Source of the DNA: Acidobacteriota bacterium
GTDB taxonomy: Bacteria > Acidobacteriota > Terriglobia > Bryobacterales > Bryobacteraceae
Length of the DNA: 34,161 nt
Direction of reading: 5' to 3'
Assembly: GCA_016871015.1 (NCBI GenBank)
Contig: VFZX01000036.1
Coordinates: forward strand, 1-34,161
The notes beneath the pieces are model-generated. The model did not search any database, was not told the origin of the DNA, and was given only the letters and a program-made list of their open reading frames with translations. Both the position numbers and the translations under genes were made by a program. Positions 18,507 to 33,934 of the stretch are shown one piece after another. Within the stretch, counting starts at the first letter, position 1. Every line of letters starts with the position of its first letter.

Positions 18507-19760
18507 ATGCCTTGGACGGAATGCGATCTCGCGATCGTTAACGGGCTGATCATCGACGCGACGGGTGCGCCCGCGCGGCCTGGCGCGGTGTTTATCACTG
18601 GCTCGCGCATCACTGAAGTGCGCAGCGGTACGGTGGCGGATTCGGAGTTCATCGCCCGGCGTGTGATCGACGCCAGGGGCGGCGCCGTGATGCCGGGGAT
18701 GACCGACGGCCACTGGCATCCGAGCTACTACAACGCCCGCACTATCGCGGACCTGGACATCCAGTCGCCGATCGAGGAGACGGTGATCCACGCGGTGCGC
18801 CACTGCCAAGTGATGCTCGAGTGCGGATTCACGATGGCCGTGTGCGCGGGTGCGCATCACCGGCTCGACGTCGCTTTGCGCAACGCGGTGAACGCGGGCG
18901 AGATTCCGGGTCCAAGGATGCTCGCCGCGGGCCGGGACATCTGCTGCACCGGCGGACTCACAGACTGGAATCCCGCCTGGTGGAAGCTTGGCCTGGAAGG
19001 ACTCACGATGATCGCGGACGGCGAGGACGAGATCCGCAAGGCGGTCCGGTTGAACGTGAAAGAGACCGCCGACGTCATCAAATTCTTCGTGTCAGGCGAA
19101 GGCGCCTCGTTCAACTGCAATCAGTATCAGACGACATGCACGCGCGCCGAGCTCGAAGCGTACGTCGATGAGGTCCACCGCCGCGGGCGCCTTGCATCGA
19201 CCCATGTGCGCGACCGCACCGGGACCCGCTGGTGTGCCGAGCTCGGCGTCGACATCATCAACCACGCCACCTATGCCGATGACCAGACGCTCGATCTGAT
19301 CGCGGAAAAGAACCTGACACTCGTTCCCGCGCTTGGCTACATCTTCGGCGTGTTCGAGAACGGGGAGCGCTTCGGACTCGACGAGGCTTTCCGCAAGGCA
19401 TCGTTCGCCGCCGAGGATCGTGAGTCCGGCTGCGAAGTGATTCGAAAGGCGCATAAGATGGGCATCCGCGTGGTTACGGGCGGAGACTACGGATTCGCGT
19501 GGGTTCCGCACGGCGAATATGCGAAGGACCTCGGCTACTTCGTCAGCCACATGGGATTCACGCCGATGGAGGCGATCATCGCGGCCACGCGGCACGGAGC
19601 CGAGCTGCTCCGCATGCAAGGCGACTGCGGAACGATCGAGCCGGGGAAGTATGCCGACCTGCTGGTGATTGACGGCAATCCGCTCGATGACATCTCGATC
19701 CTGTGCGACCGGTCGAAATTTGTATGGATCTTCAAGGGCGGCGTGGAAGTGCGCAGGTGA
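18507..19760 (+). CDS. Metal-dependent amidohydrolase (dipeptidase-like)
   Basis: A 417-residue amidohydrolase with a complete binuclear metal site: His69-x-His71 (DGHWHP), bridging Lys192 (VIKFF), His233 (STHV), His253 (NHATY) and Asp327 (GGDYG). The usual flanks are present: NGLIIDATG, GRITEV-like SRITEV, VIDARGGAVMPGMTDG, AATRHGAELL and TIEPGKYADLLVIDGNPLDD. Relatives include prolidase-like and Xaa-amino-acid dipeptidases as well as enzymes for N-acyl or cyclic amides. No signal peptide is seen, so it is cytoplasmic. GAGG occurs just 4-5 bases before the ATG. Its stop overlaps the next start as GTGA (19757-19760). Unlike the HutI-like protein at 9753-10805, this one looks catalytically competent. 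Confidence 0.88.
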   Translation: MPWTECDLAIVNGLIIDATGAPARPGAVFITGSRITEVRSGTVADSEFIARRVIDARGGAVMPGMTDGHWHPSYYNARTIADLDIQSPIEETVIHAVRHCQVMLECGFTMAVCAGAHHRLDVALRNAVNAGEIPGPRMLAAGRDICCTGGLTDWNPAWWKLGLEGLTMIADGEDEIRKAVRLNVKETADVIKFFVSGEGASFNCNQYQTTCTRAELEAYVDEVHRRGRLASTHVRDRTGTRWCAELGVDIINHATYADDQTLDLIAEKNLTLVPALGYIFGVFENGERFGLDEAFRKASFAAEDRESGCEVIRKAHKMGIRVVTGGDYGFAWVPHGEYAKDLGYFVSHMGFTPMEAIIAATRHGAELLRMQGDCGTIEPGKYADLLVIDGNPLDDISILCDRSKFVWIFKGGVEVRR

Positions 19761-22603
19761 TCCGCCTGGCCGCGTTGATTGCGACCGCGGCCGCGTCATC
19801 GGCGGCGCCGAACCGCGTGATCGACCTCAACGGCGTGTGGGAGTTCCAGCGGGGCGCGGCCCGGCAGTGGGTGCCGGTCCACGTTCCTCACAATCACCGC
19901 GAAGTGTCCGGCGAAGACCGGAAGTCCGGCCAGCCCCTCGTGCTCCGGCGGAAGTTCACGCTGGACGCACTGGAGCGCGGCGAACGTGCGCTGCTGCATG
20001 TCAGCAACGCGCCCAAGCCGCTTGTGCAAGTCAACGGCGCGGAAGCGGGCAAGGCCGGTGCGCTGAACTTCGGCCTCATCACGGAGATCACGTCGCACTT
20101 GCGCGAAGGCATCAATGAAATCGAGCTCGTGACGACGGTGCCCGGAGTGCAGGGAGGCGTTTCGATCCATGTTGTGGGCGAGGCCCATCTCGACATCGAG
20201 GGTCCGAGGGTGGACACTCCGGGATTCGCGGGTGGCGCTGCCGATGTGCGGCTCCGCACGCGGGTGACGGCGGCAACGAATAAGCCGATGCGGCTCCTGC
20301 TGCGGATCCATGGTCCCGACGGCCGCGAGCTGGGCCACGCGGATCGCGCGGTTGAACCAGGTGACGCGGAATTGACGATCCGCGGCATTGCGAATCCGCC
20401 GCTCTGGTCGGTGGCAACTCCACGCCTGTGCAAGGCAACGGCCGAACTCTCGGTGGCCGGTGTTGTGGTGGATCGATCTCAAACGGAATTCGGATTCCGC
20501 TGGTTCCGCTTCGATCCCGAAACGGGATTCCATCTCAACGGCGAGCCGCTCAAGCTCCGCGGCGTGGTCTACACAACGGTGGGTCCCAAAACATTTGCGT
20601 CCCGGCGTGCTCTATGGGACTACGAGATCGGACTCCTCAAAGGAATGGGCCTAAACTTCGTCCGCCCCACACCAGGAATGGACGACACGTTCCTCGCCGA
20701 GTGTGATCGAGCCGGACTCCTTGCCACGGTCCGTGTGCATGATTTCGGCGACGCAAGCGTGGAAGGCAATGCGGATGCGGTCCGTGAAAACATGCGCCGC
20801 GATGTTGCGCAGAAGTTCAATCATCCGTCGGTGATCGCATGGAACTTCGTCTCTGAAGGCGCCACGGGCGCGCGGCTGATCCTGCAGAACGAGGCCGCCC
20901 GGGCGTTGCGTGCACTCGATCCGGCGCGTCCCGTACTCTGCAATGAGCTCGGCTGGCGCTCACCCGGCACGGTGGGGCGCGTCGAGGCTGACGTGGCCGG
21001 ACAGGGTAACTACACGGGCTGGTATGAGGGCACGCTCAACCACATTGGTCCGTACATGGACCGCTACCGCGAGTTCTTGAAGGAACGCTACGGACGCCTG
21101 CTTCCCGTGCTCGTGTCCAATTACGGCGCTGCTGTCGACAACTCCGTGCGCGCTGCCGCGCCCCGGCGCAACGACTACTCGGTCGAATACCACACGGCGT
21201 TCCACCGGCGGTTCGAGCGCGAGATCGACGCCCGGCCCTGGATGTCCGGCGGTCTGCTGTTCTGCTTCCGCGATATCGATGGCGGACAGGCGATTCCGCG
21301 CCACACATGGAAAGGCGTGCTCGATCTGGAAGACCGCAAGCGCGATGCCTACTTCTATTGCCAAAGCAAGTGGACCACGGCTCCAATGGCGCACATCGTG
21401 GCCAGCGCCGTGTCGCGTGAGGTTGAAGTATTCACCAATCAGCCGGAAGCCGAGTTGTCCGTGAACGGACGCTCGCTCGGCAAGCGGACCCGTACGCAAG
21501 GCTTCCGTTGGACCGCGGATTGGAAACCCGGCGGCAACCATCTGGTGGTCCGCGCGGGATCCGTCACTGCCGAAGCGCATGTCACCTCCGCCAAGGCCGC
21601 GGCGCCCGCACGCCGTCCCGGCGAGTTCTTCACGAACGAAGGCTGGCTGTACGGGACGCCCGCCGCACTGGACCGCCGCGTGATCTTCGGCTCCTACGAC
21701 GGCAACGTCTATTCGGTGGATGCATTGGGCAAGGAGGTCTGGCGCTTTGCGACTGGCGAAGAAGTGTTCTCGACGCCGGTGATCAGCACGGACCGGATCT
21801 TCGTCCAATCCAGCAGGGCAGTCTACGCGCTCACCCACACCGGACAACTGAAGTGGAAGGTCTCCGGTGTGCGGACCATGGACCGCAACGCAAAGTCGCC
21901 GGTGCTTCACGCCGGCACACTCTACGCCACATCGGACACTGGAGAACTGCTGGCGATCAGTACTAACGGCGAGGTCCGGTGGCGCTATCGCGTCGGCGCG
22001 CTGTGTCTCACCAGCCCTGTCCTCGCGCGGGACAGGATCATTTTCAGCGCCGACGACGGCGTCCTGTACGTGGTTGGCGCGGATGGCAAGCTGGTGTGGC
22101 AAAAGGACAGTGGACTTGGGCCCGACGCCGCGGGTCCGCCACCGAACGCACTGCAGCCGGATGCGAACGATGCCATGATCGTCAGCGGAGCGGGCAGCCT
22201 CCGCACATGGGACCACACCGGCAAACTCCTCTGGGAGGACCGCACCGCACGTGGTCCGGTGCGTTTCATCGGCGACCGGATCGCGATCGTGATGCGCGAT
22301 GAACTGCGCGTCTACGATCCATCTGGACGCCAAGCCTGGAAGTACTCGCTCAATGACCGCCGGGACTTCTTTTCCGCGCCCCCGGTCGCGCTTCGATGGA
22401 ATGGGCGCGACATCCTGGCCGCGGGAACACGCGGCACCCGGCTGGTGGTGCTCGACACCAACGGACGGCTGGCAGCCAAGTTCGCGACCGAAGATGAAGT
22501 GTCCGGCTCGGCGGTGGTTGCCGACCTCAATGGCGACGGACGCCAGGAGTTGATCTTCGGCTCGCGCGACGGAATTCTGTACCGCATGGAGGACGCGCCG
22601 TGA
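19757..22603 (+). CDS. GH2-like protein with altered nucleophile, fused to a PQQ-type beta-propeller
   Basis: A 948-residue exported protein. I chose GTG 19757 (overlapping the previous stop as GTGA) because it gives a signal peptide, VIRLAALIATAAASSAA; the longer frame is inside the previous gene. The N-terminal part is a GH2 sugar-binding domain (VIDLNGVWEFQRG, VHVPHNHREVSG), then an Ig-like domain and a TIM barrel (GFHLNGEPLKLRGVVY, GLLKGMGLNFVRPT, KFNHPSVIAWNFVSEG). The acid/base Glu is kept at residue 367, although the usual Asn before it is Ser. At the nucleophile position, where GH2 enzymes have Glu in SEYG, this protein has VSNYG with Asn455. Residues about 610-948 are beta-propeller repeats (IFGSYDGNVYSVDALGKEVW, LLAISTNGEVRWRY) ending in VVADLNGDGRQELIFG. 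A glycan-binding or altered-mechanism role is likely. Confidence 0.82.
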   Translation: MIRLAALIATAAASSAAPNRVIDLNGVWEFQRGAARQWVPVHVPHNHREVSGEDRKSGQPLVLRRKFTLDALERGERALLHVSNAPKPLVQVNGAEAGKAGALNFGLITEITSHLREGINEIELVTTVPGVQGGVSIHVVGEAHLDIEGPRVDTPGFAGGAADVRLRTRVTAATNKPMRLLLRIHGPDGRELGHADRAVEPGDAELTIRGIANPPLWSVATPRLCKATAELSVAGVVVDRSQTEFGFRWFRFDPETGFHLNGEPLKLRGVVYTTVGPKTFASRRALWDYEIGLLKGMGLNFVRPTPGMDDTFLAECDRAGLLATVRVHDFGDASVEGNADAVRENMRRDVAQKFNHPSVIAWNFVSEGATGARLILQNEAARALRALDPARPVLCNELGWRSPGTVGRVEADVAGQGNYTGWYEGTLNHIGPYMDRYREFLKERYGRLLPVLVSNYGAAVDNSVRAAAPRRNDYSVEYHTAFHRRFEREIDARPWMSGGLLFCFRDIDGGQAIPRHTWKGVLDLEDRKRDAYFYCQSKWTTAPMAHIVASAVSREVEVFTNQPEAELSVNGRSLGKRTRTQGFRWTADWKPGGNHLVVRAGSVTAEAHVTSAKAAAPARRPGEFFTNEGWLYGTPAALDRRVIFGSYDGNVYSVDALGKEVWRFATGEEVFSTPVISTDRIFVQSSRAVYALTHTGQLKWKVSGVRTMDRNAKSPVLHAGTLYATSDTGELLAISTNGEVRWRYRVGALCLTSPVLARDRIIFSADDGVLYVVGADGKLVWQKDSGLGPDAAGPPPNALQPDANDAMIVSGAGSLRTWDHTGKLLWEDRTARGPVRFIGDRIAIVMRDELRVYDPSGRQAWKYSLNDRRDFFSAPPVALRWNGRDILAAGTRGTRLVVLDTNGRLAAKFATEDEVSGSAVVADLNGDGRQELIFGSRDGILYRMEDAP

Positions 22604-25600
22604 GATTCGCAGCTTGCATCTTCGGACTTGCCTGGGCGGCGAGCGCGGCGTCGCAACGGTTCGACTTCGGACCCACTGAGTCGCCACTCGAGCCGGGCTA
22701 CGTCGCGGTGACACCGGATCAGGCGTATTCAAAGTCCCGTGGCTACGGATTTCTCGCGCCGCCCGCCGAGTCCGGGGTGATCGACGCGTCCCTCACGCGC
22801 ACCGATGAACGATTCCGGAAGCCCTGGCGCGTTGAGCACGGCATCGCCTCGCTGAGCCCGCTGACCCGCGACTACGTGGCCGGACCCGAGATCCGTTTCC
22901 GCGCCGACCTTCCGAACGGCAAGTACGAGGTGACCGCGATACTCGGCTACAAGCACGGCATCCATCACGTGAACGCCGACGCGAATGGCGTGCGGGTCGC
23001 CTCTGATCTTTCGGTCTACACGCTCCACTACGCCTACCGCGGATTCCGCGAGGACACCTCCATTGGCGCAAGCTACCGTTTGCGTTTTCCCATTGAGGTC
23101 CGCGGTGGAAACCTGGAGTTGAGGCTTTCCGGCGATCAGTCCAGGGGGAAGCAGGCCCACGTGATTAAGACACGCGCGGGAACGGATCTCCGTTTTGAGA
23201 CGGGAGACTCATTTACGGTCGCCGGACTCATGGGACTCCGGATCCGTCCGTGGCAGGCTCCCTCTAGCGAAGCGTGGACCCTGTTCGAAAAGGCGGGCCG
23301 TGCGGACACTCCATGGCGCGAGGAAGCGCGGTTACTGGCGCTCGCCAGGCGCGCGGTGAAGCCAGGCGATGATCTGGCGGAAGAGATCGCCCTGGTGCAA
23401 GAGGCGCGTGGGCATTTCTATGAGCGGTCGAGCGGCAATAACGAGATGGGCACAATCGCCGGATTCTATAAGGCGCACTCAATCTGGCGCCAGTTCGGAC
23501 CCGGACATCCGTTCCACGACAAAGGACTCATCTATACGGGACGCATGTTCGCCGGATCATTCCCGTTTTCGCCAACGCCGACTTCGGAGTACGGCCGCGA
23601 ACTCCTGCGCGACGTCGAAAAGCGGCACCCGCGCGATCCGTACGTGCGCCTGTACCTGCACAACGAGTGGTCCCCGAAGGACTGGAAGCTGAACGAGTAT
23701 CCCGCGCCGCCGGACGCACCGCAGTGGGCGGCATTGCTCCGGCGCGCATGGAATCAGAATCTCGACTTTGCCGAGTACTGGGCGGACTTCCGCCAGCGCC
23801 CCGACGGGTCACTCGGCGGCGGATGGAACGACGACGTCGAGATCATGCCCGTGTGGGTCCTCAACTGGTTTGTAAACCCGGACGCGTCACCGAAGGTCGC
23901 GCGCATGCTGGAGCGTTTCACCGAAGGCTTCTGGACTTCCGGCAACCTCGATCACCGGCGTGTCTTCTCGGCGCATTTTTCCGATGCCGAGCACGCCGCG
24001 GAGGACCAGGGGAACTCCGTGCCTTACCTCATTGGTGTGCAGTACGGGAATCCGCGCTATCTCAATTGGAACCTGCGGACACTTCGCTTTTTCCGCGACT
24101 ACCTCACAGGTGTCAACGCCAATGGACGCCGCCATTTTCGCGGAAATCACTTCGACGCCACGCGTTACTCGATGGACCTGACTCCGGGCAAGGGCGCGGA
24201 AGACGTCGAGGCGGCGATCAACTACCGCGCCTTCGGCGGCGTGCCGTGGATGGTGTGGTACAGCGGAAATCCAGCGGCGCGAAAGCTGCTCATCGAGCAT
24301 GCGGACTCTTGGCACGCCGCGGCCATGTCCACGGCGAAAAGCAAGCCACGCGGCATCATGCCCTCGCAGGTTTCGTTCGCGGACGAAGTGGGCGGCGGGG
24401 AGGCATCCTGGCGCGGAAAGCCAGGACTTGGCGCCGGCGGGGATTGGCCGGATTACCTGTGGTACCTGCATTCGCTGATGCTGGCCGCGTATTCGGCTAC
24501 GGGTGACAAGAAATACCTCGAGCCCTTCGAGGCCACCCACGACTTCATCCGCGCGAATCCATCGGATCCGCTGACGGCGGAGATCCGCACGCACCAGCAC
24601 TTCGCTGACGCGTTCTTCGTCTTGCGGGATCTCACTGGCGACCGCCGCTACGACGAGTTCCTGATGCAGTCCGCGCGCCCTTACGTGAAGTGGCGGCTGA
24701 CGGGCGACAGGAAGTTCCTCGTTGAGGATCTGAGCGCCATCAACGCCAACGTCCGCCAGCGGTGGCCGCACATGACCACCGAGGCAGTGATGACCGACCG
24801 CATCGGATACAACCCGCGGATGGCTTCCTACATGACCGGTGCGCTGTCAGAAATCGGATTTCAGGGCTTCCCGCATCACGCGGTCACCTATGCGGGTGCC
24901 GGCCGTGACTTTGCCGCGCTCGTCGAACAGGCTTCGGACAACAGGCTGAGCATTTTATATTATTCGTTCGGCCCGCAACCGCGACCGGTGGGAATCAGGC
25001 CCTGGCGCCTGGCTCCCGATGCGCGCTACCGGATCACGGCAGGCGATTCCACGCAAGAGGTCTCGATTCGTGAGCGCGGACAAGTGATCCCCGTGCGCAT
25101 TCCGCCGATGCGCGAAGTCCGGATCGAAATCGAGCGGATCGGCGCACCAGCGCCCGCGTCGCCACGGCCCGATCTCGCGTTGACCGCGCGCGACATTCGC
25201 TGGAACGCAGCTTCCGATCAGATCGAGGCGACAATCCACAGCGTGGGTGCGGCGCCGGCGGAGAACTTTGAAGTCGCTTTCTTCCGGAAAGACGACAAAG
25301 GGCTCCACCTGCTGGAGCGCGCCGTGGTCTCACACCTTGCCGCCCCCAACGGACTCCAAGAGGAGAACATCACCGTGGGCACCTGGCTCCATCGCGACAC
25401 CATGATGGAGGGCGACACGGTTGAGGTCCGCATCGACCCGGATCGCAAGCTCAGCGAGATCACCACGACGAACAACGCCGCATCCTGGCGCCTTGAGCTC
25501 AGTGAGAAGCAGCGCGCGCAAATGGTGTCGAAGCGGCTCACCGAGCACGACCAACGGTTCCGGCAGGAGCGGCCGGGCGCGGCGATCGAGCGTCCGCGCC

Positions 25601-26349
25601 TGCGCACCATCTCCAACGTTCAATACGGTGGCGACGACCCCGTGATGCAGCGGCTCGATGCGTACCTGGTAGACTCCCCCAAGCCCACGCCGGTTGTGAT
25701 CGAGTACCACGGTGGCGGCTGGCGCAACGGGTGGAAGAGCGACCTCGATCAATACAACGGTTTCCTCCGTCAATTGATGAACGCTGGATATTCGCTGGTC
25801 TCGGCGGACTACCGCATGACGCCCAAACACGTGTGGCCGGTTCCAGGCGATGACGCCGAGGCCGTGCTGCATTTCGTCCTGGGGAAGGCCAAGGAGTGGA
25901 ACCTCGATCCGAAGCGCGTCGTGCTGCTGGGCGGCTCGGCTGGCGCGCACTTGGCCATGCACGTGGCGTTCAAGAATCCGTCGAAGGTGCGCGCCGTAGT
26001 GGACCTGTGGGGTCCGACGGATCTTCAAGCGATCAGCCCCCGTGTTCCGCGTGGCGAAGCATTGACCGCGCTGTTTGACACAACGGTTGACGAGTACGAG
26101 AAGCCCGCTGGATTCCTGCTGTCGCAGCTCCGTGATGCATCGCCGATCCACCGCGTGCAACGGACGGCACCGCCGGTTTTCATCGTCCATGAGAATCAGG
26201 AAGAGGGCGTCCACAAGGCGCCGTTCGGACGCGCTCTGGCCGCAAAGCTCAAGGATGCGGGCGTCGCGCACGACATCTATATCGCGCCCCGGGCGGGCGC
26301 GACCTTTCATACTCGCGCGTTCGCTTTCCTGGAGAAGCACGTCCGGTGA
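22600..26349 (+). CDS. Multidomain secreted protein: galactose-binding-like, alpha-toroid, CARDB and alpha/beta esterase domains
   Basis: A 1,249-residue exported protein, GTG start overlapping the previous stop (GTGA). The signal peptide is about residues 1-18 (RFAACIFGLAWAASAAS). Residues about 20-220 resemble the beta-sandwich found before rhamnogalacturonan esterases (FDFGPTESPLEPGYVAVTP, DLPNGKYEVTAILG). Residues about 225-850 are helical with aromatic and acidic motifs (GGGWNDDVEIMPVWVL, RNHF-like RGNHFDATRYS) and look like an alpha/alpha toroid of glycosidase or lyase type, family not recognised. Residues about 855-970 form a CARDB domain (LTARDIRWNAASDQIEATIH, ITTTNNAASW). Residues about 1010-1249 are an esterase: HGGGW oxyanion hole (His1037), GGSAG with Ser1113, and His1237 in TFHTR. 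The acid residue is unclear (VHENQEEGV). Likely a combined glycan-cleaving and deacylating enzyme. Confidence 0.75.
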   Translation: MRFAACIFGLAWAASAASQRFDFGPTESPLEPGYVAVTPDQAYSKSRGYGFLAPPAESGVIDASLTRTDERFRKPWRVEHGIASLSPLTRDYVAGPEIRFRADLPNGKYEVTAILGYKHGIHHVNADANGVRVASDLSVYTLHYAYRGFREDTSIGASYRLRFPIEVRGGNLELRLSGDQSRGKQAHVIKTRAGTDLRFETGDSFTVAGLMGLRIRPWQAPSSEAWTLFEKAGRADTPWREEARLLALARRAVKPGDDLAEEIALVQEARGHFYERSSGNNEMGTIAGFYKAHSIWRQFGPGHPFHDKGLIYTGRMFAGSFPFSPTPTSEYGRELLRDVEKRHPRDPYVRLYLHNEWSPKDWKLNEYPAPPDAPQWAALLRRAWNQNLDFAEYWADFRQRPDGSLGGGWNDDVEIMPVWVLNWFVNPDASPKVARMLERFTEGFWTSGNLDHRRVFSAHFSDAEHAAEDQGNSVPYLIGVQYGNPRYLNWNLRTLRFFRDYLTGVNANGRRHFRGNHFDATRYSMDLTPGKGAEDVEAAINYRAFGGVPWMVWYSGNPAARKLLIEHADSWHAAAMSTAKSKPRGIMPSQVSFADEVGGGEASWRGKPGLGAGGDWPDYLWYLHSLMLAAYSATGDKKYLEPFEATHDFIRANPSDPLTAEIRTHQHFADAFFVLRDLTGDRRYDEFLMQSARPYVKWRLTGDRKFLVEDLSAINANVRQRWPHMTTEAVMTDRIGYNPRMASYMTGALSEIGFQGFPHHAVTYAGAGRDFAALVEQASDNRLSILYYSFGPQPRPVGIRPWRLAPDARYRITAGDSTQEVSIRERGQVIPVRIPPMREVRIEIERIGAPAPASPRPDLALTARDIRWNAASDQIEATIHSVGAAPAENFEVAFFRKDDKGLHLLERAVVSHLAAPNGLQEENITVGTWLHRDTMMEGDTVEVRIDPDRKLSEITTTNNAASWRLELSEKQRAQMVSKRLTEHDQRFRQERPGAAIERPRLRTISNVQYGGDDPVMQRLDAYLVDSPKPTPVVIEYHGGGWRNGWKSDLDQYNGFLRQLMNAGYSLVSADYRMTPKHVWPVPGDDAEAVLHFVLGKAKEWNLDPKRVVLLGGSAGAHLAMHVAFKNPSKVRAVVDLWGPTDLQAISPRVPRGEALTALFDTTVDEYEKPAGFLLSQLRDASPIHRVQRTAPPVFIVHENQEEGVHKAPFGRALAAKLKDAGVAHDIYIAPRAGATFHTRAFAFLEKHVR

Positions 26350-27803
26350 CGCGCCGCGCGTTCCTTGCCTCTTCCGCGGGCACGGCGTTCGCGCAGTCCG
26401 GCGGCCGCAAGCCGAACTTCATCGTGATCCTCGCCGACGACCTCGGATACGGTGACCTCGGCTGCTACGGCTCACCCAACATCCGCACGCCAAACCTCGA
26501 CCGCATGGCGCGGGATGGAGTCCGGTTTACCAGCTTCTACGCGCAGCCAGTGTGCGGCCCGTCGCGGGCGGCCTTGCTCACGGGATGCTATCCGCCGCGC
26601 AATAGCCTGGCGTTCAACCATCTTCCTGGATTTGTGACCGGCATCCATCCGGATGAGGTGACGATCCCCGAAGTGCTCAAGCAGGCTGGCTATGCGACGA
26701 TGATGACCGGCAAGTGGCACCTGGGTGACGATCCCAAGTTCTCGCCGTTGCGCAACGGATTCGACCGGTACTTCGGAATTCCATTCTCGAATGACATGTG
26801 GCCCTACCATCCACGCATGCCGTTCGGACAGCAGCCGCATCCGATGCTTGCGGCGATACGCAAGCGCGCCGGATACACAGGGTACGCGGGCCAGGGCACG
26901 GAGTTCCCGCCGGGTGGCGGATTCCCGAAGGCCCTCCCCTTAATCGAGCAGGAGGAGGTGATTGAGCAGAATCCCGACCAGTCCCAACTCACCGGACGCT
27001 TCACCGATGCCGCGCTTCGATTTATTGAGTCGAACCGCGCGCGTCCGTTCTTCCTCTACATGGCGCACGTGATGCCGCATGTTCCGCTGTTCGCCAGTGC
27101 CAACTTTGCGGGCCGTTCGGCTCGCGGGCTCTACGGCGACACGGTGGAAGAGTTGGACGCCTCGGTTGGCCGGATCCTCGACCGCCTCGCTCAATTGGGT
27201 CTGGATCAGAACACGATGGTCGTGTTCGCATCGGACAACGGACCGTGGCTGCAGTACGGTGTCGACGGCGGCTCCGCGGGTCCGCTGCGCAACGGGAAGG
27301 GCACGCAGTGGGAAGGCGGCTCGCGTGTGCCGGCGATCATGCGTTGGCCAGGCCGGATCCCGGGCGGACGGGTCAACGGTGAGATCGTCACCACGATGGA
27401 TTTGCTGCCGACTTTCGCGGAGATCGCAGGCGCGCGGCTGCCTTCCGGCCGCGTGGTGGACGGCAAATCGCAGTGGCCGCTTCTGCGCCGCGCACCGGGA
27501 GCGAAGTCCGCACAGGACACGTTCTACTACTTCGGCGCGGACCTGTTTGGCGAGCCTGGATCCACGGAACCCACTCCCGGCTACGAGATCCCGAAACTCC
27601 AGGCGATCCGCGTCAACGAGTGGAAAGCCCACCTGAACGAGAAAACGCTTGAGCCCACGGCGCTGTTTCACCTGGGCGAAGACGTGGGCGAGTCGCACGA
27701 CCGCTTGAAGAGCAACGGTGGGGAGGCCGCACGGCTGGCTGCGCAGGCGAGGCGGTTCCGCGACACACTTGCCGCTCAAGTCCGGCCGCTTGGAAGGCGT
27801 TAG
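26346..27803 (+). CDS. Secreted S1-type sulfatase (arylsulfatase)
   Basis: A 485-residue sulfatase, GTG start overlapping the previous stop (GTGA). A short twin-arginine-like signal is present (TRRAFLASSAGTAFA). Metal-binding Asp31-Asp32 lie in LADDLGYGD. The formylglycine signature is CGPSRAALLTG with Cys70, which a formylglycine-generating enzyme must oxidise before the protein is active; no such gene is in the window. Further hallmarks are MTGKWHLGD, PFFLYMAHVMPHVP and the second metal site FASDNGPW, followed by RNGKGTQWEGGSRVPAIMRWPG. It removes sulfate from a sulfated glycan, mucin-type or aromatic ester outside the cytoplasm; context favours a glycan. A small insert begins right after its TAG stop. 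Confidence 0.92.
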   Translation: MTRRAFLASSAGTAFAQSGGRKPNFIVILADDLGYGDLGCYGSPNIRTPNLDRMARDGVRFTSFYAQPVCGPSRAALLTGCYPPRNSLAFNHLPGFVTGIHPDEVTIPEVLKQAGYATMMTGKWHLGDDPKFSPLRNGFDRYFGIPFSNDMWPYHPRMPFGQQPHPMLAAIRKRAGYTGYAGQGTEFPPGGGFPKALPLIEQEEVIEQNPDQSQLTGRFTDAALRFIESNRARPFFLYMAHVMPHVPLFASANFAGRSARGLYGDTVEELDASVGRILDRLAQLGLDQNTMVVFASDNGPWLQYGVDGGSAGPLRNGKGTQWEGGSRVPAIMRWPGRIPGGRVNGEIVTTMDLLPTFAEIAGARLPSGRVVDGKSQWPLLRRAPGAKSAQDTFYYFGADLFGEPGSTEPTPGYEIPKLQAIRVNEWKAHLNEKTLEPTALFHLGEDVGESHDRLKSNGGEAARLAAQARRFRDTLAAQVRPLGRR

Positions 27804-27968: not shown

Positions 27969-27989
27969 GCTGAGTGAAGCGGATATCCA
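27969..27989 (-). repeat. Right terminal inverted repeat of the insert
   Basis: Read on the minus strand it begins TGGATATCC and ends ACTCAGC, 21 bases. It pairs with 27812-27832 at 18 of 21 positions. Confidence 0.6.
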
Positions 27990-27990
27990 G

Positions 27991-27999
27991 TAGACTGAA
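27991..27999 (+). repeat. Right 9-bp direct repeat flanking the MITE-like insert
   Basis: TAGACTGAA, identical to 27801-27809. It lies 4 bases before the DUF1501 start codon, so the insertion event also set the present leader of that gene. Confidence 0.6.
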
Positions 28000-28003
28000 T
28001 TCT

Positions 28004-29275
28004 ATGAACCGCCGCGATGTGCTGCAAATCGGATCGCTCGGATTCCTTGGTCTCACCCTGCCTGAGTGGAGCCGGGCGCGCGCAGCGGCAGCACTGCCGG
28101 ATACATCGTGCATTTTCATCTGGCTCGACGGTGGTCCGAGCCACCTCGAAACCTTCGACTTGAAGCCGGACGCGCCAGTCGAGGTGCGGGGCAGCTTCAA
28201 GCCCGTACGGTCGAAACTTGCTGGCGTGCATGTGTGTGAACACCTGCCGCGCATCGCCGCCATCATGGACCGCGTGACGCTGATCCGCACGCTCACATCG
28301 GAAATCGGCGAGCACGACCAGGCGGGCCACTACTGGATCACTGGATACAAGCCCACGCCCGCTATCGCCTTTCCGAGCCACGGATCCGCGGTGAGCAAGG
28401 AACGCGGTGGCCGCGGCGCAATGCCCGCCTACATCGCGGTCCCGTCGCCGCGTCCCTACATGGGATCCGGATATCTGCCCGGTGCGTATAGCCCGTTCAG
28501 TGCCGGATCGGATCCTTCGCGCCCGGACTTCAAGGTGCGCGACCTCGACCTGCCCATCGGTCTGAGCGAAGAGCGGCTCAGGGACCGGCGCGCCATGGTT
28601 GCCAAGCTCGACTCATTTGACCGCGCCCATCAGAATCACCCGAAGGGCGCCGATCGAGACAGCCATTTCGAGCAGGCGTTCCGGCTGGTGACCTCGCCCC
28701 AAGCCAAGGCCGCGTTTGACCTGTCGAAGGAGACGCCCGAAACGCGCAGCCGCTATGGCCGCTTCAAGCTCGGCCAGAGCCTTCTGCTCGCGCGCCGCTT
28801 GATTGAAGCTGGAACGCGTTTTGTCACCGTCTCCGACACAGGCTGGGACACCCACATTCAGATCGCCTACAACCTGACGTATGGATTCCCCGGTAAGCTC
28901 CCGGGACTCGATCAGGCCTACAGTGCCCTCATCGAGGACCTGGACCAGCGCGGGATGCTAAAGAACACGCTCGTCGTGTTGATGGGCGAGTTCGGACGCA
29001 CGCCCAAGATCAACCCCTCCGGAGGCCGCGATCACTGGCCGCGCGCCAACTCCGCGCTGCTCGCGGGTGCAGGTGTGTTCGCGGGACAGGTGATCGGACG
29101 CACCGATGCCAGCGGCGAGCTGCCCTCCGACGAGCCTGTGACACCCCAGGATCTGGCGCACAGTATCTTCACACACCTTGGCGTCGATCCCCACAAAACG
29201 TTCCAGTCACCGGACGGCCGCCCGATCCGTTTAGTGGACGGCGGCCGCTACCTCAGCAAGATCGCGGCGGGCTGA
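28004..29275 (+). CDS. DUF1501 family protein with Tat signal
   Basis: A 423-residue protein. I chose ATG 28004 (MNRRDVLQIGSLGFLGLTLP), which gives a clean twin-arginine signal; an in-frame GTG at 27974 would start inside the flanking insert. DUF1501 hallmarks are IFIWLDGGPSHLETFDLKP, FKPVRSKLAGVHVCEHLPRI, VTLIRTLTSEIGEHDQAGHY, TVSDTGWDTHIQ, DLDQRGMLKNTLVVLMGEFG and RDHWPRANSALLAGAGV. The fold belongs to the alkaline-phosphatase/sulfatase superfamily, with metal-binding Asp and His residues seen in WLDGGP, DTH and DHW. DUF1501 proteins are usually encoded next to DUF1549/DUF1553 proteins; here that partner is two genes downstream. Function is unknown. The length is close to the family norm of about 420-480. 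The next gene starts one base after the stop. Confidence 0.9.
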   Translation: MNRRDVLQIGSLGFLGLTLPEWSRARAAAALPDTSCIFIWLDGGPSHLETFDLKPDAPVEVRGSFKPVRSKLAGVHVCEHLPRIAAIMDRVTLIRTLTSEIGEHDQAGHYWITGYKPTPAIAFPSHGSAVSKERGGRGAMPAYIAVPSPRPYMGSGYLPGAYSPFSAGSDPSRPDFKVRDLDLPIGLSEERLRDRRAMVAKLDSFDRAHQNHPKGADRDSHFEQAFRLVTSPQAKAAFDLSKETPETRSRYGRFKLGQSLLLARRLIEAGTRFVTVSDTGWDTHIQIAYNLTYGFPGKLPGLDQAYSALIEDLDQRGMLKNTLVVLMGEFGRTPKINPSGGRDHWPRANSALLAGAGVFAGQVIGRTDASGELPSDEPVTPQDLAHSIFTHLGVDPHKTFQSPDGRPIRLVDGGRYLSKIAAG

Positions 29276-29276
29276 C

Positions 29277-30167
29277 ATGCGGCTGGTGGCGATTGTGCTT
29301 GCCGCGCCGCTGTTTGCGGACCACGCGATCACCTGCGTCCGATTCTCCCCCGATGGTTCGCGTCTGGCGGTGGCGGGCGGCAATCAGGTGCGCATCACAG
29401 GAACTGTGGAACAGCGGATCACATCCCGCCTCAGCCAGGTGTTCGGCGTCGCTTGGAGTCCCGACGGCAAGTGGCTCGCGGTTGCTGGGGGGACGCCGGG
29501 CGTCGCGGGTGCGGTGGAGCTGTGGTCCACCGGTACGTTCGTCCTGCAACAGACAATCGCCCGCGGTGGCGACGTGATGTACGGCGCGGCATTCTCACCG
29601 GACTCGAAATCGCTCGCCGCAGCCTCGGCGGACCACCGTGCCCACGTCGCCGATGTCTCGTCCGGTGGCACGCAGAAGCGGCTCGAAGGGCACGCGGGAC
29701 CCGTGATGGCGGTCGCGTGGGCTCACGACGGAGCAACCCTCGCATCGGCTAGTGCCGACCGCTCCGTGCGCCTGTGGAGCGCCACTGATGGCTCGCTTCT
29801 GCGCGCACTTACGAACCACAATGGCGCCGTCGAAGGTCTGGTCTTCTCAGCCGCTGGCGACGAGCTTTACACGGCATCGGCCGACGCGACAGTGCGCGTG
29901 TGGGTCCCATCAAACGGCCGGATGAAGCGGATCCTGCGCGGGTTCGATGCGCCGGTCCTGGCGCTGGACATCGGGCCGCGGGGACTCCTGGCCGCCGGTG
30001 TTGCGGACTCCACGGTGCGCCTCATTTCGCCAGCTTCGGGCGAAATGGTCGCGCGCCTGGCCACGCTTGAATCCGGCGCATGGCCGCAGGCTGTCGCCAC
30101 GAGCGGGTCCCGCGTCGCCTGGGGCAGTACTGACGGTAGATTCTCAATAAAGGAAATCGGGCAATGA
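29277..30167 (+). CDS. Secreted WD40-repeat protein
   Basis: A 296-residue beta-propeller protein with a short signal peptide (MRLVAIVLAAPLFA). Six to seven WD40-type blades are visible: ITCVRFSPDGSRLAVAGG, FGVAWSPDGKWLAVAGG, MYGAAFSPDSKSLAAASADH, VMAVAWAHDGATLASASADR followed by VRLWSATDGSL, VEGLVFSAAGDELYTASADA followed by VRVWVPSNG, VLALDIGPRGLLAAGVADS, and a closing AVATSGSRVAWGSTDG. There is no enzymatic domain, so it is presumably a protein-interaction scaffold or ligand sensor in the periplasm. It lies between DUF1501 and the first redoxin-like gene, whose ATG overlaps its TGA stop (30164-30167). Confidence 0.85.
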   Translation: MRLVAIVLAAPLFADHAITCVRFSPDGSRLAVAGGNQVRITGTVEQRITSRLSQVFGVAWSPDGKWLAVAGGTPGVAGAVELWSTGTFVLQQTIARGGDVMYGAAFSPDSKSLAAASADHRAHVADVSSGGTQKRLEGHAGPVMAVAWAHDGATLASASADRSVRLWSATDGSLLRALTNHNGAVEGLVFSAAGDELYTASADATVRVWVPSNGRMKRILRGFDAPVLALDIGPRGLLAAGVADSTVRLISPASGEMVARLATLESGAWPQAVATSGSRVAWGSTDGRFSIKEIGQ

Positions 30168-30997
30168 AGTACCTGAGCTGGCTTGCGGTCTGCACTGCGC
30201 CATTGTTCGCGCAGGAGCAAATCTTCTCCGGACCTCAGCCGGGCGAGCCGCTGCCGCCTTTCAAGGCGTTGGCAGCGTCGGGACCGGACTCCGGCCAGGA
30301 AGTGGACTTCATCGCGCGTTACGGCGACGCTCCCGTACTGCTCGTGTTCCTCCGCGACATTGACCGCAACGTGTATCGCACGCTGTGGCCGTGCGACCGC
30401 TACGCCGCTGGCCGCCCGGATCTCCGCGTGCTCTATGTCTACCTCGCGCCGGACCGCGTGGATGGCGAGCGGAGTATGCGGGCCGTGGCGAAGTCGCTGT
30501 CTCTCACCGTGCCCGTCGCGGTGTCGCTTGACGGCGTGGAAGGTCCAGGCGCGTACGGACTCAACAAGCAGGTCGCGGTCACGGCAATCGTGGCCAAGGG
30601 CGGCAAGGTGCTCTACAATCGCACGATCGTCCAGCCGGGAGCATCGGAAGCGCAAAAGATCATCGCCGAGTGCGTGAAACTGGTGGGCGGGCGCGTTCCG
30701 TCCGACCTGTGGCTTGCCCGTGGGCCTTCCCGCACGCTCTGGCTTACGCAGGAAAAGCTCGAGGAGACGCTCCAGCCCGATCCACCGCAGTTGGCGGAAG
30801 CGTTCGCGCGGATGACGCCGCCGCACGCGACCGGAATTGCCGCCAAGCGGACCACACAGGAGATTCGTGCCTGGGCCGCGGCATCCGGTGAGCGCAAGCA
30901 GTACGTCGTCAGGCGCATTCCCGCGGTGCTCGAGATCTGCGAATCGGACGAGGCGCGCCAGTTGCTCAACACTCTCCGTGAGGAACTGGCCCGGTGA
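30164..30997 (+). CDS. Secreted thioredoxin/redoxin-like protein without a Cys pair (copy A)
   Basis: A 277-residue exported protein (signal MKYLSWLAVCTAPLFAQ). The mature N-terminus has FSGPQPGEPLPPFKAL, as in redoxins, then VDFIARYGDAPVLLVFLRDI, where the thioredoxin CXXC or peroxiredoxin Cys would follow; here the residues are DRNV, with no Cys pair. The strongly conserved core is SLDGVEGPGAYGLNKQVAVT followed by AIVAKGGKVLYNRTIVQPG. I recall this motif set from a family common in Planctomycetes with no assigned function. The C-terminal third is helical and divergent. It is a clear paralogue of the gene at 33101-33934 and has the same length. Coupled at both ends: ATGA with the WD40 gene and GTGA with the DUF1549 gene. 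Confidence 0.75.
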   Translation: MKYLSWLAVCTAPLFAQEQIFSGPQPGEPLPPFKALAASGPDSGQEVDFIARYGDAPVLLVFLRDIDRNVYRTLWPCDRYAAGRPDLRVLYVYLAPDRVDGERSMRAVAKSLSLTVPVAVSLDGVEGPGAYGLNKQVAVTAIVAKGGKVLYNRTIVQPGASEAQKIIAECVKLVGGRVPSDLWLARGPSRTLWLTQEKLEETLQPDPPQLAEAFARMTPPHATGIAAKRTTQEIRAWAAASGERKQYVVRRIPAVLEICESDEARQLLNTLREELAR

Positions 30998-33090
30998 CAC
31001 TGCTGTTGGCCGCGGCGATGGCGGTGGGCACGGCTCCCGACTTCGTCACGCGCGTGCAACCGCGGCTGGTGAAGGCTGGATGCTTTTCCGGCGCCTGCCA
31101 CGGCTCGGGCAGCGGTCAAGGCGGATTCAAGCTGTCGCTGCTCGGCTACGATCCTGAGGCCGACTACGTGGCGATCGTTCGAGCCTATCGCGGCCGCCGT
31201 CTGAACCTGGTGAAGCCAGAGGACAGCCTGCTGGCCAAGAAGGCGTCGTTCCAGATCGCGCACGGCGGAGGCAAGCGGTTTGGCACCGATAGCGGAACCT
31301 ATCGCATGCTGGTCTCCTGGATCGCCGCCGGAGCGCCATACGGCAGCGGTCGCGGAAGGCGCATCGAGCGGCTGGAGGTGGCCCCGCTCTCGATCATGGC
31401 GCCGAACGTTTCGATGAAGATCCAACTCGCGGTGCGCGCGCACTTCAGCGACGGATCAATCGACGATGTCACGCCATTCGCTCTCTATTCCTCAAATGAT
31501 GACGGCATCGCGCAGGTGTCCGATGCCGGCTTGGTGACCGTGGTGCGCTCCGGAGAGACGGGAGTAACGGCGCGCTACATGGGCAAGTTCGCCGTCGCGC
31601 GCGCGGGGCTGACATTCGCGGGTCCCGTGAGCCGGGCCAGTCCGGCGGGGGCATTCATCGATCAAAGCATCAACCGGAAAATGAGCTGGCTGCGTCTGGT
31701 CCCCTCAGCGGACTGCACGGACTCCGAGTTCCTGCGCCGTGCATCGCTTGATCTCGCCGGCACCCTTCCCACGGCCGCTCAGGCGCGCGCCTTCGTCTCC
31801 TCACCCGATGCTCATAAGCGGGCCGCGGCTATCGCCGCGATGCTCGAAACCGAGGACTTCGCGAACTTCTGGACGATCTGGCTGCTCGACCTGTTCCGTA
31901 CGAGTTCGAAGCAGATCGGCGAGAGCCACCTGCTGCCCTTCGCGAACTGGCTCAAGGACCGCATCGCGCGCGACGCGCCGTTCGATGAGACAGTCCGCGA
32001 GATGCTGACGGCTTCCGGTGAAGCGGATGCGAATCCAGCGGTGAATTTTCTCCGCCAGGACTCGAATCCAAAGCTGCTCGCTGAGCTCGCCACGGAGTCT
32101 CTCATGGGCTCGCGATCCCGCTGCGCGCAGTGCCACGACCATCCGTTCGATAGTTGGACCCAGACGCAATACCACCAGTTCGTTTCGTTCTTCGTCCGCG
32201 TGAACCGCACCGAGACGGGCGTCAGGATCGCGGGACACGGTGAGATCGATCATCCCAAGACGATGAAGCCGGTCGTGCCGGGATTCCCTGATGGCAGCGC
32301 ATCCAACCCGGATCACTCCGACCGCCGCGCCGCGCTCGCCGCCTGGCTCACTTCTCCGTCGAACGCCTACTTTGCGCGCTCGTTCGCCAACCGTGTTTGG
32401 GCGCGGCTGATGGGACGCGGGTTGATCGAACCCGTGGACGGACTGAGTGTGAGCAACGCGGCATCGCATCCGGAACTGCTCGACGATCTGGCGGCCCACT
32501 TCGCGCGTAGCTACTCGCTGAAGTCGCTCATTCGCGAGATCACCGCGTCGCGCGCCTATCAACGCAGCGGGGTTGCGAACACGGTCAACGCCACGGACGA
32601 CCGCTTCTATTCGCGTGCTCTGGCCGCTCCGTTGGGTGCTTACGCCCTGGCCAACGCCATCAGCCAGGTGACCGGCGCACCGGACCAATTCGGGAAGCTC
32701 CCGCTGGGTGCGAAGGCGTCTGCGGTGTTTGACTCGCAGACCGAGTCCTACCTGCTCGATGTGTGTGGCCGCTGCCTGCGCGAGGGGAGTTGCGACGCGC
32801 CGAATCCCGCGGCCGGTGGTGTCCGGCAGGCATTGCACTTCCTGAACGGTCCCGTGATCAACGCAAAGCTCGCCGCCCCTGAAGGACGGCTGCGGAGTCT
32901 GAGGGCTCAGAACCACTCGCCCGCGCGGATCGCCGAAGAGTTCTATTGGGCCGCGCTGAGCCGTGCGCCTACGGGAGCAGAGCTGGACTTCTGGCTCAGC
33001 CGCATCGCCGCGGCTAAGGATCCGGATGCTGCCCTCGAGGACCTGGTCTGGAGCCTCCTCAACAGCCGCGCATTCGTGTTCGATCGATAA
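30994..33090 (+). CDS. DUF1549/DUF1553 (PSCyt2/PSD1) protein with Big_2-like domain
   Basis: A 698-residue exported protein, GTG start overlapping the previous stop (GTGA), short signal TLLLAAAMAVGTA. The N-terminal segment has CFSGACHG (Cys30, Cys35, His36), an expanded heme-like motif typical of this family, followed by GGFKLSLLGYDPEADY. A Big_2-like beta domain at about residues 125-210 (VRAHFSDGSIDDVTPFALYS, GETGVTARYMG) precedes DUF1549 (FIDQSINRKMSWLRL, FLRRASLDLAGTLPT). A canonical CXXCH is at residues 377-381 (CAQCHDHPFDSW). DUF1553 follows with AAWLTSPSNAYFARSFANRV and RLMGRGLIEPVDGLS. The protein may carry heme c, but its reaction is unknown. It normally pairs with DUF1501. Confidence 0.9.
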   Translation: MTLLLAAAMAVGTAPDFVTRVQPRLVKAGCFSGACHGSGSGQGGFKLSLLGYDPEADYVAIVRAYRGRRLNLVKPEDSLLAKKASFQIAHGGGKRFGTDSGTYRMLVSWIAAGAPYGSGRGRRIERLEVAPLSIMAPNVSMKIQLAVRAHFSDGSIDDVTPFALYSSNDDGIAQVSDAGLVTVVRSGETGVTARYMGKFAVARAGLTFAGPVSRASPAGAFIDQSINRKMSWLRLVPSADCTDSEFLRRASLDLAGTLPTAAQARAFVSSPDAHKRAAAIAAMLETEDFANFWTIWLLDLFRTSSKQIGESHLLPFANWLKDRIARDAPFDETVREMLTASGEADANPAVNFLRQDSNPKLLAELATESLMGSRSRCAQCHDHPFDSWTQTQYHQFVSFFVRVNRTETGVRIAGHGEIDHPKTMKPVVPGFPDGSASNPDHSDRRAALAAWLTSPSNAYFARSFANRVWARLMGRGLIEPVDGLSVSNAASHPELLDDLAAHFARSYSLKSLIREITASRAYQRSGVANTVNATDDRFYSRALAAPLGAYALANAISQVTGAPDQFGKLPLGAKASAVFDSQTESYLLDVCGRCLREGSCDAPNPAAGGVRQALHFLNGPVINAKLAAPEGRLRSLRAQNHSPARIAEEFYWAALSRAPTGAELDFWLSRIAAAKDPDAALEDLVWSLLNSRAFVFDR

Positions 33091-33094
33091 GGAG
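33089..33094 (+). promoter_or_regulatory. Strong Shine-Dalgarno for the last operon gene
   Basis: AAGGAG, six bases before ATG 33101, overlapping the TAA stop of the DUF1549 gene. It is the best ribosome-binding site in the cluster and fixes the start of the second redoxin-like gene against a longer in-frame ORF beginning at 32963. The other inner genes depend on stop-start overlaps instead. Confidence 0.8.
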
Positions 33095-33100
33095 ATATCA

Positions 33101-33934
33101 ATGAGGACCATGCTGTGCTTATTTGCCGGGGCGTTGGCCCTGCTGGCCCAGGGGACTCCCTTCTCCGGTCCACAGGCCGGCGAGCAACTGCCGCCGTTCA
33201 AGGTCCTGATGGTGAATACGGTGGACGCGGGAACAGAAGTGGATTTCATCGGCCGGCACGCGGGCGCGCCCACGATGGTTGTGTTCCTGCATCAGCTCGA
33301 CCGTAATGTCGCGGCCCTGATGCAGCCGGTCGAGACGTACGCGCAGGATCGCGCCGCGGCCGGACTCGCGACGCTTTGGGTCTACCTGTGTCCGGACAAG
33401 GTGGAGGGTGAGCGCCGCATGCAGGCTGTGATCAAGTCGCTGCGGCTTCAGTCGGCGGTGGGCGTGTCGGCCGACGGCGTCGAGGGCCCCGGGGCGTACG
33501 GGCTCAACAAGAATGTTGCGGTGACGGCGCTGGTCGCCAACAAGGGTGCCGTGACCGCGAATTTCGCGATCATCCAGCCGGGGATGGTGGATGCGCCCCG
33601 GATCCTGGCCGAAGCCGCGAAACACGTGGGCGGACGCGTGATGACGGTGGCCGAGCTGGAGGCCGGTCGCGAGCGGGCCCGGTCCATGGGCTCGATGCGC
33701 AGTACAGAGCCGGACCCGCCGGAGATGGTCGCGCTGCTGCGGCAGTTGATCCAGAAGTCGAATGATAATGCACGCGTCGATCAGACTGTCCAGGCGCTAC
33801 GGGAATGGGCGGGGACTGACGCGGTGCGCCGTGGCCAGTTAGCGGCGAAGTTGGGAGTGATCATTCCGCTGAAGTACGGCACGGAGTACGCGCAGTCGCG
33901 AATGCCAGTGCTTAAGGCGGAGTTGGAGAAGTAG
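33101..33934 (+). CDS. Secreted thioredoxin/redoxin-like protein without a Cys pair (copy B)
   Basis: A 277-residue paralogue of the protein at 30164-30997, same length and organisation. Signal peptide MRTMLCLFAGALALLAQ, then FSGPQAGEQLPPFKVL, VDFIGRHAGAPTMVVFLHQL with DRNV in place of the active-site Cys, ADGVEGPGAYGLNKNVAVTA and VTANFAIIQPGMVDAPRIL. No CXXC is present. The C-terminal part (PPEMVALLRQLIQKSNDN onward) is helical and differs from copy A. It is the last gene of the plus-strand cluster and the only one there with a strong ribosome-binding site, so it may be translated at a higher or independent level. A non-enzymatic or chaperone-like role is possible. Confidence 0.78.
   Translation: MRTMLCLFAGALALLAQGTPFSGPQAGEQLPPFKVLMVNTVDAGTEVDFIGRHAGAPTMVVFLHQLDRNVAALMQPVETYAQDRAAAGLATLWVYLCPDKVEGERRMQAVIKSLRLQSAVGVSADGVEGPGAYGLNKNVAVTALVANKGAVTANFAIIQPGMVDAPRILAEAAKHVGGRVMTVAELEAGRERARSMGSMRSTEPDPPEMVALLRQLIQKSNDNARVDQTVQALREWAGTDAVRRGQLAAKLGVIIPLKYGTEYAQSRMPVLKAELEK

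Follow-up and report, generated by a model that had tools for sequence, protein, structure and literature searches.

A predicted thioredoxin-fold family without CxxC accompanies one clade of DUF1549/DUF1553 proteins

The contig VFZX01000036.1 of an Acidobacteriota bacterium in the family Bryobacteraceae (assembly GCA_016871015.1), the 34,161 nucleotides of which are called the window throughout, holds five closely packed genes, all on the + strand: DUF1501, WD40, A, DUF1549/DUF1553 and B. The question it raises is what two redoxin-like proteins that lack a cysteine motif might be doing on either side of a DUF1549 gene. Gene A (30164..30997, + strand) and gene B (33101..33934, + strand) each begin with ATG and encode 277 amino acids; both products are probably secreted (signal peptides and the other secretion calls were made by eye), and both belong to a predicted thioredoxin-fold family without CxxC, here named RED. 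An original prediction had given this bracketing, the coordinates and the two lengths correctly, and all of the motifs that it named are found in A and B. The reading favored here, to which we assign a probability of roughly 0.6, is that RED serves one clade of putative diheme DUF1549/DUF1553 proteins as a subunit for binding or sensing, without catalysis of its own. Its position beside, or fusion with, a single DUF1549 type and its missing reactive cysteines together suggest such a subunit rather than a redox enzyme. In RED, a predicted thioredoxin fold that lacks the usual chemistry would be tied to a partner of cytochrome-like type.

A predicted redoxin-like fold and its missing cysteines

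An alignment of eight rows, with FSGPQ and EGPG as patterns, was used to scan genomes for RED. It gave 99 confirmed matches, of which the best 80 were kept; these make up 77 loci, found in Planctomycetota, in Poribacteria and in a small number of Acidobacteriota. The family is rare in the last of these, occurring in 1 of 396 genomes of a sample of the phylum; three more genomes gave weak matches to relatives only (L123–L125), which were rejected as RED because they are the CYx-TGA proteins described below. A match on a viral contig (L012) covers tail residues 207–271 only (E 4e-4). Neither A nor B matches a redoxin-type model in Pfam or NCBIfam even at E <= 1, and seven RED relatives are likewise without a redoxin-type match in Pfam at that level. 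The best Pfam match of A is a sub-threshold one to DUF1289 (17.1 of 27 bits), and the sole redoxin-type hint comes from L065 against the NCBIfam model deiodinase_rel (E 0.58). Among the members scanned, RED is a family without a Pfam or NCBIfam model. No convincing relatives by sequence were found in the PDB, and no earlier description was met in open-access papers on DUF1549, DUF1553, DUF1501, PSCyt and Poribacteria/BlaR1; the family is nameless and may have been described elsewhere.

An AlphaFold2 model of B (mean predicted local distance difference test, pLDDT, 94.2) has 390 matches in the PDB at E <= 0.001. The best match to residues 24–178, among ResA/DsbE/TlpA and peroxiredoxin structures, reaches Z 17.9 with a root-mean-square deviation (rmsd) of 2.2 over 140 residues; five further helices follow this region. 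On this model, B is a member of the thioredoxin-fold superfamily. The label "redoxin-like" in the original prediction thus holds for the predicted fold, but no redoxin model of Pfam matches. The likeness to ResA, TlpA and DsbE (PDB 1st9, 4nmu and 3gl3) is close in shape (Z 17.7–17.9, rmsd 2.2–2.3, 136–140 residues), whereas identity in the structural alignments is 14–15%, and RED differs in its absent CxxC, in the Arg or Lys that occupies residue 68 in 92/94 members, in its extra C-terminal helices and in the missing Pfam redoxin match. Peroxiredoxins such as AhpE and Bcp resemble the model nearly as well (Z 16–17.5), but RED has neither a conserved Cys nor the corresponding Pfam match.

The absence of reactive cysteines extends well beyond the window. 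Alignment A2 left out 15 of 107 RED stretches and one row with an unknown residue. CxxC occurs in 0/94 aligned members, and no column of conserved Cys that might be peroxidatic runs across the 94. No row has a Cys at residues 62–72 (two have one at residue 61), which is the helix start that bears WCxxC in TlpA-type proteins, as placed by one weak HHalign alignment. The domain is entirely Cys-free in 69/94 members. Residue 68, the R of the DRNV segment named in the original prediction, is R in 79/94 and K in 13/94. The earlier argument that the lack of a Cys pair speaks against redox catalysis is supported by the 94 aligned members, and a role for RED as a redox enzyme is rejected, there being neither CxxC nor any conserved Cys. 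The alignments support a RED that would be without thiol catalysis.

The DUF1549 partner and its specificity

RED occurs in 4/61 related genomes, each time as a pair of copies separated by about 3 kb, and the same four genomes are the only ones with a DUF1549 match to the window protein of at least 828 bits, the next best being 521 (at most 18 candidates per genome were scored). The chance of recovering the same set of four is about 1 in 520,000, taken as the reciprocal of the number of possible sets of four genomes among 61, with the proviso that two of the genomes, G041 and G045, are of the same genus and are non-independent. The 8.66 Mb genome of the window (G000) contains 103 matches to DUF1549 (PF07583); adjacency to some DUF1549 gene is therefore unremarkable, and it is the one-to-one match with a particular type that is remarkable. 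In G041 and G045, moreover, A and DUF1549 form a single open reading frame (ORF) of 923 amino acids, in which the DUF1549 signal peptide is gone, as judged by eye.

The DUF1549 tree is consistent with this specificity. It comprises 73 proteins; a single clade (SH-aLRT 98, a quick method) groups the 45 RED-linked ones apart from the 28 that are not linked, 22 from the window genome and six more. Nineteen of 92 ORFs were left out (12 poribacterial, four near-copies and three truncated), and the label "linked" was assigned manually to five poribacterial rows, where DUF1549 lies within 8 kb rather than 1.5 kb. A DUF1549 gene lies within 1.5 kb and on the same strand for 8/8 acidobacterial RED ORFs, from four genomes, and for 40/58 planctomycete ones, or 28/35 of those that are well flanked (2.5 kb or more of sequence to either side of the RED ORF). 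The poribacterial arrangement is looser: 2/20 RED ORFs have DUF1549 within 1.5 kb on the same strand, and 17/17 well-flanked ones within 8 kb. DUF1501, WD40 and DUF1549 are all present within 8 kb of 6/6 acidobacterial, 21/35 planctomycete and 11/17 poribacterial well-flanked RED ORFs. For comparison, 20 other DUF1549 stretches of the window genome were inspected, representing 22 DUF1549 ORFs sampled from the 103 matches, mostly near the window protein's score. These resemble the cassette in partner family and in the presence of DUF1501 genes (16 of 20), but differ in that only one has a WD40 match and none has RED.

Several observations weigh against a reading in which RED belongs to this partner. 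Seven of the 35 well-flanked planctomycete RED ORFs (L018, L034, L042, L050, L061, L063 and L064) have no DUF1549 within 1.5 kb, and at L047 RED sits in a cassette whose DUF1549 falls outside the linked clade. Over 32 loci, RED distances track those of the cassette neighbors (r 0.47–0.65, 0/999 permutations as high), but less closely than the other three cassette genes track one another (r 0.80–0.82). The conservation of FSGPQ and EGPG arises partly by construction, because both were scan patterns. Finally, when RED was compared by HHalign with ten Cys-bearing ORFs, drawn from the twelve matches of the window genome to the redoxin family (PF08534), one weak but plausible alignment was obtained (L110, probability 26%). 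The distance correlations and the RED genes with no DUF1549 within 1.5 kb together portray RED as a loyal companion, not an inseparable one.

It could be asked whether a rare gene block simply moves as a unit, with A and B having no joint function with DUF1549. The rarity of RED in Acidobacteriota makes horizontal transfer of such a block plausible, and the seven stand-alone planctomycete genes would fit it as well; yet membership of the cassette persists while gene order differs between phyla, and neither the A-DUF1549 fusion nor the match with a single DUF1549 clade is what a passive block would favor. We regard this explanation as very improbable. The working partnership proposed in the original prediction finds support in the gene run, in the fusion in two genomes, in the identical presence and absence across 61 genomes and in the single clade, and the sequence comparisons support a RED-DUF1549 partnership that would be clade-specific.

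The partner itself (30994..33090, + strand; 698 amino acids) matches PF07583 (134.9 bits, E 5e-39) and PF07587 (116.2 bits, E 2e-33), both over the cut-off, and is thus a PSCyt2/PSD1 protein; it also carries an Ig-like domain of the Big_2 type. Two putative haem c sites are present, an N-terminal CX4CH (CFSGACH, residues 30–36; 31081..31101, + strand) and an internal CXXCH within the PSCyt2 domain (CAQCH, residues 377–381; 32122..32136, + strand). Both motifs recur in every linked DUF1549 ORF that covers the two sites. An alignment of 54 rows (A3), including four rows that do not belong to the linked clade, shows no variation at C35, H36, C377, C380 and H381 and very little at C30; three DUF1549 rows that contained unknown residues were excluded from it, as were 12 of the other 65. 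Profile matches to FoxE (E 0.03) and to diheme cytochrome c (E 0.5) are weak. From the motifs, the partner is likely a diheme c-type protein. Its structural model is of good overall quality (pLDDT 87.8, predicted template modelling score 0.89), with low confidence around the first motif, and a fold search with the whole model gave an Ig-like domain as the sole clear match; that PSCyt2 and PSD1 are without a fold match does not imply that these folds are new. In the available portion of one paper, the functions of PSCyt-type DUF1549/DUF1553/DUF1501 genes are said to be unknown and a carbohydrate role is suggested (PMC5615132). The accessible part of another mentions a stress-linked PSD1/PSC2 gene, suggests redox reactions and counts 41 of each domain, DUF1549 and DUF1553, in Rhodopirellula baltica (PMC2754498). 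A single open-access paper was found that names DUF1549 and DUF1553 together.

A partner with two candidate haem sites invites a different role for RED, that of a chaperone or haem-maturation helper which would make contact with the apocytochrome at CXXCH and CX4CH, as ResA does, but simply hold it there and leave the reduction to a general thiol protein. ResA is an apocytochrome c reductase and is among the best fold matches of B; the partner has motifs of the appropriate kinds, and the link is to a specific clade. Motifs of these kinds, however, also occur in other DUF1549 proteins of the window genome, RED is found in 0/20 of the stretches that hold them, and this genome contains only two RED genes. 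Peroxiredoxin-type folds score nearly as high as ResA, and fusion to a single client would be odd for a chaperone that must recycle. A maturation role accordingly seems unlikely, and a stable subunit of the DUF1549 protein is preferred.

Origin of the pair and of the family

A and B are clearly paralogous (BLASTP, 115/280 identical, 41%, E 4e-67), and their resemblance is unevenly distributed: identity is 54% over the N-terminal 179 residues (97/179) and 19% over the C-terminal part (18/95). This agrees with the difference in C-terminal thirds reported in the original prediction, with the addition that the tails are still homologous, their alignment scoring 57 against a shuffled mean of −22 (standard deviation 12; 0/500 shuffles as high). 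The equal length of A and B, true as it is in the window, is a coincidence, because the corresponding pair measures 279 and 282 amino acids in genome G005, while in G041 and G045 B has 225 amino acids and A is fused. At least 85 residues follow the RED domain in 43/58 planctomycete RED ORFs, so that the tail is probably ancestral; many of these tails align by eye with that of B, which keeps the "-YGT--AQ" form common in planctomycete RED, whereas the A tail has diverged. In G041 and G045 the B tail is shortened and the A tail is replaced by the fused DUF1549. Duplication followed by C-terminal divergence, as originally proposed, is therefore accurate as regards the divergence of the tails, but not if it is taken to mean that tails were simply gained after the duplication.

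The duplication itself is apparent in a RED tree, for which 86 ORFs supplied 110 domains (partial domain hits of fewer than 120 model positions were left out). All eight acidobacterial copies form one clade (support 100/99), which makes A and B the products of a duplication; within this clade the four A copies group together (100/97). Constraining the four B copies to group together gives a slightly better tree than the free search (log-likelihood, lnL, +2.9; approximately unbiased test, p-AU, 0.57), and confining the duplication to the lineage of the window and G005 gives one that is 22 lnL units worse (p-AU 0.13), which is not formally rejected. From these constrained trees, the A/B duplication is most likely older than the divergence of the two families of Acidobacteriota in which the cassette occurs. 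The single clade gives no support to an independent acquisition of the two genes; phylogeny combined with genomic context, the check originally proposed, gave no sign of separate and mostly DUF1549-free acquisitions. Planctomycete loci usually have one RED gene per cassette, which makes the bracketing by two an acidobacterial elaboration. One of the planctomycete cassettes (L026) is that of the cultured species Thalassoglobus neptunius. Two planctomycete loci (L028 and L043) have a second RED after WD40, of a type that may be sister to the acidobacterial clade (weak support, 94/51).

The nearest relatives found outside RED (matches up to 72 bits) belong to an unnamed redoxin-like family with the motif [LFI]CYx[C/TGA] (L123–L125 and L127–L134); the loci examined were 8 of 20 weak matches and all three from the phylum sample. 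These proteins are short and probably secreted, and occur in the same planctomycete genomes as RED and in another acidobacterial family (f89). They have the SGPQ-G and GP-NYG-N segments in common with RED, but CYxC or CYx-TGA takes the place of RED residues 48–51; D48 (D in 82/94 RED members) aligns with their first Cys. No DUF1549 gene is present in the 5/5 neighborhoods of this family that were examined. The simplest story consistent with these alignments would be that RED lost a redox motif and gained a partnership with DUF1549, in either order.

The relatives are of some interest in themselves, as a predicted selenoprotein family. An in-frame TGA stands in 6/11 loci at the position of the second Cys of [LFI]CYxC in the other five; the TGA forms are L131, L132 and L134 from planctomycetes and L123, L124 and L125 from f89, and the Cys forms are L127–L130 and L133. 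SelB is over its cut-off in 6/6 genomes with the TGA form and in 3/5 with the Cys form. Three Cys forms matched no redoxin model of Pfam or NCBIfam. The consulted portion of a 2026 review contains no such redoxin and lists a "TonB-dependent receptor, FCYXU motif-type" (PMC13188914). In two planctomycetes, a beta-propeller-like gene was seen by eye beside the CYx[C/TGA] gene (L135, 2654–4603; L137, 5938–7746), and one of the two matches a WD40 profile.

Possible sensing in Poribacteria and a proposed mechanism

In Poribacteria, RED appears in a different setting. The ORFs there contain one to three RED domains, the first of which starts at residue 399–459 in 16/20. Among five that were tested, an M56 peptidase domain (PF05569) precedes the RED part in three (L062, L065 and L080) and is absent from L074 and L084; in all four that were inspected, HExxH is present and a hydrophobic stretch precedes RED. 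A BlaI-like ORF was seen by eye upstream in 14/16 loci, and the one tested matches PF03965 (E 6e-32). These features are shared with the BlaR1/MecR1-BlaI systems, with the difference that the C-terminal domains are RED and not penicillin-binding. In BlaR1, the sensor position is C-terminal to the M56 part, where the poribacterial RED sits, and this placement favors binding over catalysis. No M56 domain was matched by A or B of the window in Pfam. DUF1501, DUF1549 and WD40 genes lie near the poribacterial M56-RED loci.

A sensor position raises the question of what is bound. RED might take up a small ligand or a cassette substrate, to be processed by the DUF1549 and DUF1501 proteins, and so serve as a substrate-binding or sensor module instead of a protein-protein subunit. 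The presence of one to three domains per ORF at the position of a BlaR1-type sensor would suit this role, as would the SGPQ-GE and G-EGPG-YGLNRN segments, which are strongly conserved in RED, although partly by construction. But the fusion and the specific DUF1549 clade suit a protein partner equally well, and we consider such a ligand-binding role rather doubtful.

If RED is instead a subunit of the DUF1549 protein, the following arrangement can be envisaged. RED would have given up thiol chemistry for a binding role toward one DUF1549 clade, and its docking on the DUF1549 protein would be extracytoplasmic; A, because of the A-DUF1549 fusion, would be the tightly held subunit, and B a second or peripheral one. 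The two might work together as a heterodimer, as originally suggested, or as alternatives. Once docked, RED might position or gate the substrate or the electron partner of the DUF1549 protein. In Poribacteria the domain has seemingly moved onto a BlaR1/BlaI-type receptor, where it could sense the state of the complex or a ligand and induce the cassette. A broader and distinctly more tentative picture would make RED a "pseudo-redoxin", derived from a thiol or selenothiol redoxin through loss of CYx[C/selenocysteine (Sec)] and now the dedicated module, both structural and sensing, of an extracytoplasmic machine of cytochrome-like character with four or five parts (DUF1501, WD40, diheme DUF1549, RED-A and RED-B), watched in Poribacteria by a BlaR1-type protease with the same domain. 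The DUF1549/DUF1553 genes are highly multiplied, and a small partner of predictable fold offers a concrete handle on them; this handle depends on the link with one clade, the fusion in two genomes and the reuse in a protease receptor.

The remaining features of the window concern the gene run and its surroundings. The DUF1501 gene (27974..29275, + strand), whose product has a Tat-like signal by eye, and the gene for a WD40 beta-propeller protein (29277..30167, + strand) are both conserved members of the cassette. The start of A overlaps the WD40 stop as ATGA at 30164, the DUF1549 start overlaps the stop of A as GTGA at 30994, and B, the product of which ends in a predicted helical tail, begins 10 nucleotides past the DUF1549 stop. 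For B, the ORF listing gives an upstream GTG at 32963 (323 amino acids); the ATG at 33101 is preceded by the Shine-Dalgarno-like AAGGAGATATC. Upstream of the cassette, positions 19703–27803 hold a PQQ-type propeller with glycoside hydrolase family 2 parts, an esterase-like protein of 1249 amino acids with a BD-FAE domain, and a sulfatase.

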